Below are positions 1 to 1,605 of a stretch of DNA of 64,000 nucleotides, in pieces. The stretch comes from Neotamlana sedimentorum. Lineage in GTDB: Bacteria > Bacteroidota > Bacteroidia > Flavobacteriales > Flavobacteriaceae. The stretch is taken from NCBI RefSeq assembly GCF_000943565.1, contig NZ_JTDW01000006.1, positions 124,001 through 188,000 of the forward strand, in the 5' to 3' direction. The position numbers were made by a program, and so were the translations under genes. The stretch's first letter is position 1. Every line of letters starts with the position of its first letter. Below the pieces are notes generated by a model that made no database searches, was not told the origin of the DNA, and saw nothing but the letters and a program-made list of their open reading frames with translations.

Positions 1-1010
1 TAACCATTATCTAAAAGATATTTCATTACTGCTGGTGTACCACCAATACCGTGAACATCTTCCATTAGGTATTTTCCACTAGGTTTTAAATCTGCTATTA
101 AAGGAGTTCTGTCGCTTACACGCTGAAAATCTTCTAAAGTAAACTCTATATCTGCAGCATGCGCAATAGCTAAAAAGTGAAGTACTGCATTGGTTGACCC
201 GCCTAAAGCATTTACTAAAGCAATGGCATTTTCTATAGATTTTTTAGAAATAATATCTAAAGGTTTTAAATCTAGCTCTAATAAATTTTTAATTGCTCTC
301 GCATGGCGCTCGCTTTCCGATAATTTATTAGGATTTTCTGCAGGAATAGATGAATTATAAGGTAAAGCAAAGCCCATACACTCTATTGCCGAAGCCATAG
401 TGTTTGCAGTATACATACCACCACATGCTCCTGCTCCTGGAATAGCACGACGAATAATTTCTCTATATTCGTCTTCTTCAATTTCACCAGCTACCTTTTG
501 CCCTAAAGCTTCAAAAGCAGAAACAATATTAAGTTTTCTCCCTTTATAGTTTCCAGAAGCAATGGTACCACCATACATCATAATAGACGGACGATTTAAT
601 CGCAACATAGCTATTACAGCTCCTGGCATATTTTTATCACAGCCAACAATAGAAATTAACGCATCGTAACTTTGTGCATTCATTACAGTTTCAATAGAAT
701 CGGCAATAATATCTCTAGAAGCCAAAGAATAGTTCATTCCCGAAGTTCCCATAGAAATACCATCGCTTACACCAATAGTATTAAAGCCTAAACCTACTAA
801 ATTAGCTATTTTACATTCTAATTTCACCTCGTCTTTAAGTCGGTTTAAATGCATGTTACAAGGGTTACCATCGTACCCAGTACTTGCAATACCAACTTGA
901 GCTTTACGCATGTCTTCATCGGTTAAACCGACAGCATATAACATAGCTTGCGATGCGGGTTGCGATTCGTCTTGAGTTAATCGTTTACTGTGCTTATTTA
1001 ATTCTTTCAT
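1..1010 (-). CDS. ilvD: Dihydroxy-acid dehydratase, 3' end outside window
   Basis: This enzyme dehydrates 2,3-dihydroxy acids to 2-keto acids in isoleucine, leucine and valine synthesis, using an iron-sulfur cluster in the cytoplasm. Only the first ~336 codons are in the window; the gene runs off the left edge. The start is the ATG at 1008-1010, giving [12 protein letters not shown]. Family motifs seen are [21 protein letters not shown] and [14 protein letters not shown], which carry the cluster cysteines, followed by an [11 protein letters not shown] stretch. Upstream on the same strand lies a leader peptide rich in Val, Ile and Leu with a terminator (1262-1382), so the gene is probably controlled by transcription attenuation. 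Nothing in the visible part suggests damage. Confidence 0.95.
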
Positions 1011-1261: not shown

Positions 1262-1290
1262 AAAAACCCTCCGTTTCAGGAAGGCTTTAT
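1262..1290 (-). terminator. Intrinsic terminator of the ilv attenuator
   Basis: On the minus strand the RNA AAAGCCUUCC-UGAAAC-GGAGGGUUUU forms a continuous 10-bp stem that uses two G-U wobbles, followed by a U-run. Read on the plus strand, one of those wobbles becomes a C/A clash, which fixes the orientation towards ilvD. It begins 30 bases after the stop codon of the leader peptide at 1320-1382. The 5' arm CCUUCC can instead pair with GGAUAGG at 1325-1319 (one bulged U), which overlaps the leader stop codon and would act as the antiterminator. Confidence 0.75.
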
Positions 1291-1319
1291 AAAACTTTTA
1301 TATTTGAAAATACCATTCC

Positions 1320-1382
1320 CTATCCTTGTGAAAAAATCACAACGACAACAATTAAAACGATATTTAAAAGGTTATTTCTCAT
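1320..1382 (-). CDS. Branched-chain amino acid leader peptide (attenuator)
   Basis: This is a 20-codon ORF (ATG at 1380-1382, TAG at 1320-1322). It reads MRNNLLN then IVLIVVVVI then FSQG. Eleven of twenty residues are Leu, Ile or Val, packed between codons 5 and 16. It lies upstream of ilvD on the same strand and is followed by an intrinsic terminator. The architecture matches the known ilv leader peptides of enteric bacteria: scarcity of charged tRNA stalls the ribosome in the Ile/Val/Leu run and frees an antiterminator segment. Its identity as a leader peptide is inference from composition and position. The main alternative is a chance hydrophobic ORF. Confidence 0.75.
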   Translation of the reverse strand: MRNNLLNIVLIVVVVIFSQG

Positions 1383-1393
1383 TTTTAATGAAA

Positions 1394-1424
1394 CAAATAT
1401 TTGCAATTTATTTTAAAGTACCAA
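1394..1424 (-). promoter_or_regulatory. Candidate promoter for the ilv leader and ilvD
   Basis: On the minus strand there is TTG, 20 bases, then AATATTTG, against the Bacteroidota consensus TTG-N17-23-TAnnTTTG; one base of the -7 box differs. Transcription would begin about 5 bases before the leader ATG at 1382, a very short 5' end. Confidence 0.4.
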
Positions 1425-1480: not shown

Positions 1481-1490
1481 CGCCACAAAT

Positions 1491-1605
1491 AACAGAGGAA
1501 AGATTTGACTGATTGCAACCTCTTTTTATATTGAACTTTCATAATCTTTTAAAAGATGTGCTTAATAAGTTCAACATAAATATAAAAATGCTAAAGGCAG
1601 TGTAA
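1491..1605 (+). ncRNA. SAM-II/SAM-V-like riboswitch with long loop, upstream of metK
   Basis: Helix P1 is AGAGG (1494-1498) with CCTCT (1519-1523). Its loop holds GATTTGACTGATTGCAA, closely resembling the conserved SAM-II loop. The downstream conserved GCTAAA is at 1590-1595, followed by CAGT (1598-1601), which can pair with ACTG (1508-1511) in the P1 loop to close the pseudoknot. Between P1 and GCTAAA lies a 66-base insertion that folds on itself: TTTTATAT with ATATAAAA, TGAACTT with AAGTTCA, and ATCTTTTAAAAGAT. Long-looped relatives of SAM-II (SAM-V class) are known. Position directly before the SAM synthetase gene supports feedback control by SAM. A small hairpin TTGACG/CGTCAA at 1612-1628 follows and may be part of the expression platform. 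Confidence 0.8.

Follow-up and report, generated by a model that had tools for sequence, protein, structure and literature searches.

A predicted Ile/Val-responsive attenuator before ilvD in Neotamlana sedimentorum, its conservation in Flavobacteriaceae and related leaders with other codons

Attenuation of ilv operons is classical. The enterobacterial ilv leaders (ilvL and ivbL) encode peptides rich in Ile, Val and Leu and use 1:2, 2:3 and 3:4 alternatives, as predicted for the leader analysed here; they are initiated at Shine-Dalgarno sites, and both their sequence and their lineage differ from those of the flavobacterial leader.

Similar arrangements have been described before ilvD in Firmicutes. 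Rli60 of Listeria monocytogenes precedes an ilv-leu operon with ilvD as its first gene, and mutants of its start codon and terminator behave as attenuation predicts (PMC5864092). It shares with the present locus a leader peptide of branched-chain amino acid codons (13 aa in Rli60), a four-segment terminator/antiterminator organization and the control of ilvD, whereas, comparing the descriptions, Rli60 has a ribosome binding site, CodY control and another leader length (PMC5864092). The attenuator proposed for ilvD of Staphylococcus aureus also includes a short Ile/Leu-rich ORF and a terminator upstream of the gene, the latter 52 nt after the leader stop (PMC5794164). There, Leu is important and the terminator stem is not disrupted by the proposed antiterminator (PMC5794164), whereas at our locus Ile and Val dominate and region 3 is predicted to switch partners. 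A three-hairpin model of terminator, antiterminator and anti-antiterminator has been presented for ilvBNC of Corynebacterium glutamicum, in another phylum and with ilvB as the first gene (PMC11857589), and actinobacterial ilvB leaders had been predicted earlier (PMC1262725). The rare "ilvD motif" of Veillonella belongs to another phylum as well (PMC8632094).

Closer in lineage, Flavobacterium psychrophilum, a member of the same family, was reported to show strong indications of attenuation by leader peptides upstream of amino-acid operons, with conserved 5' elements at pheA and hisG; the proposal is a general statement, made in the main text without ilv (PMC9723704, which we take to be Guerin et al. 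2021). Leader-peptide-like ORFs are also mentioned, in general terms, in a Bacteroides transcriptome (PMC7366714). In the literature searched, with subscription journals mostly outside it, we found no description of the flavobacterial ilvD element, of its two classes or of the Asn leader presented below.

The ilvD locus and its leader ORF

The window, that is, the whole stretch of DNA analysed here (64,000 nt of contig NZ_JTDW01000006.1 of N. sedimentorum, positions 124,001 to 188,000), contains the 5' part of ilvD, the first gene of an operon that in the genome runs ilvD-ilvB-ilvN-ilvC-ilvA on the minus strand, its families having been checked by profile. A search of named genomes gave Tamlana as the nearest IlvD relatives (99% identity), followed closely by Hyunsoonleella, Algibacter and others. 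On the other side of the leader lies a divergent gene, named metK from its sequence, and before it a SAM-II riboswitch match (1489-1574, plus strand; 44.7 bits against a cut-off of 44) stands back to back with the ilvD attenuator. From the analyses presented below, we consider it highly probable that the features listed in Table 1 form a ribosome-mediated transcription attenuator, which would sense charged tRNA-Ile and tRNA-Val and control ilvD-ilvB-ilvN-ilvC-ilvA.

Table 1. Coordinates of the features of the ilvD leader and of the related Asn leader
Feature	Position	Strand	Details
Predicted promoter	1424..1394	-	TTG at 1424-1422; -7 box AATATTTG at 1401-1394, imperfect match to TAnnTTTG
Leader ORF MRNNLLNIVLIVVVVIFSQG and stop	1382..1320	-	ATG at 1382, TAG at 1322-1320; conserved in relatives
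Region 1 and apical stem of the 1:2 hairpin	1364..1326	-	Folding and covariation
Region 2, antiterminator strand GGGAAUGGU	1320..1312	-	Starts at the last base of the stop codon; duplex and masked folding
Region 3 GCCUUCCU	1285..1278	-	Common to antiterminator and terminator
Intrinsic terminator (3:4)	1288..1263	-	Terminator call; helix with 96.2% paired cells in 29 leaders; T run to 1260
ilvD, 5' part	1..1010	-	First gene of the operon; starts at 1010 and continues past the window edge
Asn leader MKNNNNNNNFNNPKF	1010-1120 of L122 (G000:C11:55209-55319)		GGAAGGTTATTG after the stop; GCCTTCC terminator

A first-pass annotation, made from the letters of this DNA, had proposed a 20-codon ORF rich in branched-chain amino acids as the leader, and this was borne out: 8 of its 20 sense codons are for Ile or Val and 3 for Leu, a run of control codons within a short, translated-looking ORF before ilvDBNCA. 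By itself, this richness is only mildly unusual, as ATG ORFs 12-30 aa long and containing 9 or more Ile/Leu/Val in a stretch of 10 residues numbered one in the window and five in total in 20 mononucleotide-shuffled windows. The ORF stands above chance because it is conserved in relatives, which ruled out its reading as a chance ORF.

For this comparison, 149 genomes of the family, one per genus, were searched for IlvD, which was found in 110; 107 upstream regions were examined, leaving out G008, G062 and G065, in which the IlvD match was truncated or lay at the end of a contig. Leaders were curated with a simple terminator finder, a scan for ORFs favouring Ile/Leu/Val and reading by eye. At least one leader with its terminator was present in 58 of the 107 loci, for a total of 69 curated leaders. 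Class A, to which the N. sedimentorum leader belongs, comprised 43 of them, with a terminator of the form GCCTTCC..GGAAGGC and MKKQILNIISIIVIVIISQG as a typical peptide; class B comprised 24, with the terminator GCCTGTATCA..TGATACAGGC; the remaining two had other terminators. This second class (CCTGTATCA..TGATACAGG) is unrelated to class A in sequence and is predicted to have the same function.

The 815 residues following Met in class A leaders are 30.7% Ile, 14.7% Val and 6.4% Leu, and the 408 residues of class B leaders 28.4%, 15.4% and 7.1%, respectively, against 8.2%, 5.2% and 9.1% in the N-terminal part of IlvD from 26 loci, so that Ile plus Val account for 45% in class A and 13% in IlvD. 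The curation inflates the combined Ile/Leu/Val total of the leaders; however, it treated the three residues alike, yet Ile and Val are raised and Leu is not. In class A, Ile or Val occupy 65-86% at positions 4 to 10 before the stop and 7-23% at positions 1 to 3; in class B, the corresponding values are 58-96% at positions 5 to 12 and 4-17% at positions 1 to 3. With the Ile/Val codons upstream of the last three positions, a ribosome stalled on them should leave the bases after the stop uncovered.

The predicted promoter would place the first transcribed base at about 1389, some 7 nt upstream of the leader ATG and close to the start near 1390 assumed in the first-pass annotation. Translation starts in Bacteroidota are independent of Shine-Dalgarno sites, the -7 box TAnnTTTG sits at -12 to -5, and the median 5' UTR of F. 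psychrophilum is 24 nt (PMC9723704), compared with the roughly 7 nt predicted here. Of the 43 class A leaders, 34 have a TTTG 3-20 nt before the ATG (6.5 ± 2.3 in shuffles), compared with only 5 of the 24 of class B (3.6 in shuffles), a difference that fits class B leaders in tandem loci being read from an upstream start. The full TAnnTTTG within 35 nt was rarer, with 7 cases among the 43 class A leaders and none among the 24 of class B. A scan for sigma-70 promoters was also run, and it is uninformative for Bacteroidota.

Alternative pairings and the proposed mechanism

An intrinsic terminator lies between the leader ORF and the first gene. The first-pass annotation had claimed that it works in the ilvD direction only, and the terminator scan made its call on the minus strand and none on the plus strand at 1288-1263; its distance from the leader stop is 31 nt, and not the 30 given previously. 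The surrounding segment (1250-1400, 151 nt) folds with a z of -4.2 relative to shuffled versions, and 0 of 200 shuffles were as good.

The same annotation had proposed that a strand at the leader stop pairs with the terminator arm. Such an antiterminator pairing is indeed predicted, but the strand had been slightly misplaced: according to the duplex, GGGAAUGGU (1320-1312), rather than GGAUAGG (1325-1319), pairs with GCCUUCCU, with one bulged U and -9.2 kcal/mol (coordinates counted by hand). When regions 3 were swapped among leaders, region 2 paired better with its own partner than with those of others in class A (means of -10.6 and -9.5, P 1e-4) and in class B (-12.9 and -11.7, P 8e-4), in a test that ignores kinship among leaders and from which L013, L019 and L022 had been left out beforehand, having no clear ORF or terminator. 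Cross-class pairing was weaker than that within classes (-7.6 for A with B, -5.1 for B with A), and in the two class C leaders the own pairing was no better than the swapped one (-5.4 versus -5.6). Covariation of the 2:3 helix within a class did not exceed that of shuffles, as expected for a strand that has to match both 2 and 4.

In addition to these two helices, a third one was found that the first-pass annotation had missed. Its strands are leader codons 7-10 and 12-16 on one side and, on the other, region 2 and the last part of the ORF, so that the control-codon region is predicted to form a 1:2 hairpin with strand 2 through the pairs 1364-1354 with 1319-1309, 1348-1344 with 1324-1320, and an apical stem UUGUGA/UCACAA (1342-1337 with 1331-1326). 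The attenuator design proposed earlier was thus retained, but not as the simple switch it had been taken for: on the evidence of folding and comparison, the architecture is the full classical 1:2 / 2:3 / 3:4 one.

Several lines of evidence bear on the 1:2 hairpin. Compared with synonymous recodings, 34 of the 43 class A leaders and 16 of the 24 of class B had the better fold (p <= 0.05), with z of -4.6 for the N. sedimentorum leader; under a harder null, in which the own synonymous codons were permuted, 16 of 43 and 4 of 24 leaders remained at p <= 0.05, and our leader had p 0.04. Across 29 class A leaders, the 1:2 and 3:4 helices had 85.8% paired cells, against 58.1% or less for slid versions, a comparison that favours the class A structure, as it was drawn from the fold of our own sequence. 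In the same leaders, cells changed on both sides numbered 26 (10.9 in shuffles, 0/500), and the covariation was 0.203 (0.173 in shuffles, 0/500). The class B structure had 94.9% paired cells, with 39 cells changed on both sides (14.8 in shuffles, 0/500) and a covariation of 0.337 (0.206 in shuffles, 0/500). In both classes, these shuffles ignore kinship, and each structure was derived from within its own alignment. The outer helix of class A had only 73.7% of its cells paired, in part because the alignment is loose there. In the apical stem, U-A is replaced by C-G in four sequences and G-C by A-U in another four, and some of these covarying changes alter the peptide, from Ser to Leu in L003 and L011 and from Val to Ala in L043.

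Such changes matter for a different explanation of the ORF, according to which it would encode a functional small hydrophobic (membrane) peptide, with a terminator that only ends its own transcript. The peptide is indeed hydrophobic and its residues are conserved. However, base pairs within the ORF have been kept despite changes of the peptide, the leader stands before ilvD or ilvE in the loci read, and a similar switch in the same genome carries a hydrophilic run of Asn codons, all of which make a functional peptide very unlikely as the explanation.

The behaviour expected from the three helices was modelled by masked folding, in which the transcript up to the terminator loop was folded with the ribosome-covered part removed, and the expected 2:3 pairs were counted. 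For the leader in the window, these were 3.1 with no ribosome, 8.2 with the ribosome stalled among the Ile/Val codons, and 0.5 with the ribosome at the stop. Means for the free, stalled and stop states were 4.9, 8.6 and 1.0 in the 43 class A leaders (the stalled state exceeding the stop state in 41 and the free state in 29) and 4.0, 11.3 and 4.2 in the 24 of class B (likewise in 23 and 22, respectively), the counts including L025, L059, L068 and L101, whose stop lies beyond region 2 and which misfit the masking rule. The earlier proposal that stalling yields the antiterminator and completion of the peptide the terminator agrees with the 41 of 43 class A leaders. Duplex, swap and masked folding all point to an antiterminator that would exclude the terminator and be covered by a ribosome at the stop. 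The contrast between the stalled and stop states is clear; the state without ribosome is less so, as 2:3 is predicted to form substantially in many leaders.

According to the mechanism that we propose, the RNA would begin some 7 nt upstream of the leader ORF and, with no ribosome on it, the coding region (1) would hold strand 2, so that 3:4 would pair and transcription would stop. When Ile or Val is scarce, the ribosome would stall in codons 8-16, opening 1:2 and leaving strand 2 free to pair with 3; no terminator would form and the operon would be transcribed. When both amino acids are plentiful, a ribosome reaching the stop would cover strand 2, 3:4 would form and transcription would end. 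The sequence thus suggests a switch that very probably turns the ilv operon on only when Ile or Val runs short; in this scheme we infer the promoter, the start site, stalling, termination, read-through and the dominant amino acid.

A structured 5' region ending in a terminator before a biosynthetic operon would also be expected of a ligand-binding riboswitch or a T-box. On the ilvD strand, no Rfam family reached its gathering threshold, with only chance-level matches below it; among the amino-acid leader families the best was Phe_leader (21.8 bits against 55), and no T-box or riboswitch model matched this strand, the SAM-II match being on the plus strand, towards metK. Furthermore, what is conserved is an ORF whose control codons precede its stop, and classes A and B share their logic without sharing sequence. 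A riboswitch or T-box is therefore an exceedingly improbable alternative to a translated attenuator.

Distribution in the family, tandem leaders and the downstream element

The first-pass annotation had suggested checking conservation in relatives, and the Ile/Val codons and the terminator turned out to be kept there, both in the 58 curated loci mentioned above and in a search of 80 named loci, 64 of which matched the class A covariance model on the coding strand (E <= 0.001) while 16 did not. The 80 named and the 107 loci are not independent sets, as at least six genomes are apparently shared, four of them inside the alignment of the model. In 59 of the 64 matched loci there was an ORF with at least 6 Ile/Leu/Val in 10. 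Below about 50 bits, model R1 gave many matches scattered over AT-rich genomes, one of which (G063:C42) looked like chance; therefore, only strong or inspected matches were used. A class-wide R1 search at E <= 1e-7, whose strict filters lose weak matches, returned 3 of 295 genomes: N. sedimentorum itself, a second member of its family and a genome from outside the family.

No curated leader was found within 750 nt of ilvD in 49 of the 107 loci, four of which carry one before ilvE, and the leader is missing in some close relatives (L007, L018, L020 and L021). In L039, L083, L092 and L096, leaders stand before an ilvE-like gene preceding ilvD, the identity of ilvE having been checked in one of them. 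In L019 (G134) and L227, the latter apparently the same contig, the Ile/Val run has decayed with region 2 and the terminator intact, which from the sequence looks like an attenuator in decay, as seems likely.

Between the terminator and ilvD, at about 1244-1166 of the minus strand, we observed a conserved and partly palindromic element, TTGRAYATSRTA..CTGATAATCAG..TTGRATTTA, which could be an operator or a second promoter. It was present in 55 of the 107 ilvD loci, leaderless ones included, with 0.8 expected from shuffles. Together with the absence of the leader from some close relatives, this speaks for the operon being controlled mainly elsewhere, for example by a regulator acting on this element with its own promoter, so that the attenuator would be of little weight. 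However, in N. sedimentorum the leader is intact in ORF, 1:2, 2:3 and 3:4 and is the best match to the class A model in its whole genome (106.5 bits), and two layers of control could act together. We regard control mainly from the downstream element as unlikely and retain the attenuator as the preferred reading.

Class A and class B leaders occur in tandem in 11 of the 107 loci, with A preceding B in 11 of 11 and their starts 123-167 nt apart. The same order was found in three loci in which ilvE comes first (L129, L130 and L131, from G013, G090 and G079, respectively). Two short ORFs with attenuators in series within one leader are also known from Salmonella mgtCBR, where the pair senses different signals, ATP and proline (PMC3641672), whereas both leaders of the flavobacterial tandems are of the Ile/Val type.

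As a separate observation, the locus L124 (G093:C40:14700-16600) showed an ilvE-like gene, with a longest frame of only 123 codons, preceded by an array of three leader-like ORFs and their terminators. The first ORF and its terminator were matched by R1, and the last two leaders are nearly identical to each other and have another terminator sequence, AGCCTTTCTC.

Related leaders with other codons

The second-best match to the class A model in the N. sedimentorum genome (55.8 bits) corresponds to the leader MKNNNNNNNFNNPKF, with 9 Asn codons. Downstream of it are encoded a GatC-like protein of 88 aa (22.4 bits, below the cut-off of 47.1), a GatA (437 bits, below the NCBIfam cut-off of 481) and a GatB-AspRS fusion (gatB::aspRS), both parts of which were over their cut-offs. 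Among the 148 genomes of the family searched, 23 hold the 88-aa GatC-like protein, and the Asn leader was found in 14 of these. Masked folding in the 14 genomes gave more 2:3 pairs in the stalled than in the stop state, but the ribosome-free state had as many as the stalled one; hence, it gives no sign of a 1:2 lock in these leaders. The N. sedimentorum genome has an asparaginyl-tRNA synthetase over cut-off, no over-cut-off match to the asparagine synthase TIGR01536 and a single GatB, on the basis of which the gatC-like/gatA/gatB::aspRS operon may make asparagine on tRNA.

Other leader ORFs were noticed in the same genome, MTFIQTHHHFYICSQAK before hisG (L237), with three His codons, and MTIHYTYFINFFYFFFSGRNEALYV before the prephenate dehydratase gene (L238), with a run of Phe codons, both followed, by eye and by folding, by a terminator-like hairpin. 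In a genome of another family (L236, G258:C28), a Phe leader, MQKQLNNYFFFFNAMR, shows a GGAAGG/GCCTTCC switch and is followed by a second Phe-rich ORF; the leader precedes a gene a fragment of which best matches prephenate dehydratase (132 bits, below cut-off).

Putting these leaders together, we tentatively propose, as a possibility somewhat short of even, that attenuation in Flavobacteriaceae, and possibly in other Bacteroidota, relies on a modular cassette with exchangeable codon runs. Its parts would be a GGAAGG-like strand after the leader stop and the terminator GCCTTCC..GGAAGGC, with a near-leaderless promoter in the ilvD loci; its codon runs would be Ile/Val before ilvD or ilvE, Asn before gatC-like/gatA/gatB::aspRS, and Phe before prephenate dehydratase, and the stacking of two or three Ile/Val leaders would sharpen the response. 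Convergence of these similar switches is possible too.

In conclusion, the ilvD attenuator seems real, well conserved and classical in its predicted mechanism, and apparently new in its place and sequence, its most interesting parts being the tandem leaders and the re-use of the switch with other codons. Little has been described of how Bacteroidota control their amino-acid operons, and a conserved, apparently near-leaderless attenuator would offer a direct way into transcription-translation coupling in this phylum. The tandem arrays raise the question of what is gained from having two Ile/Val attenuators in series, and the leader with Asn codons upstream of the tRNA amidotransferase operon would, if functional, connect attenuation with tRNA-dependent asparagine synthesis.
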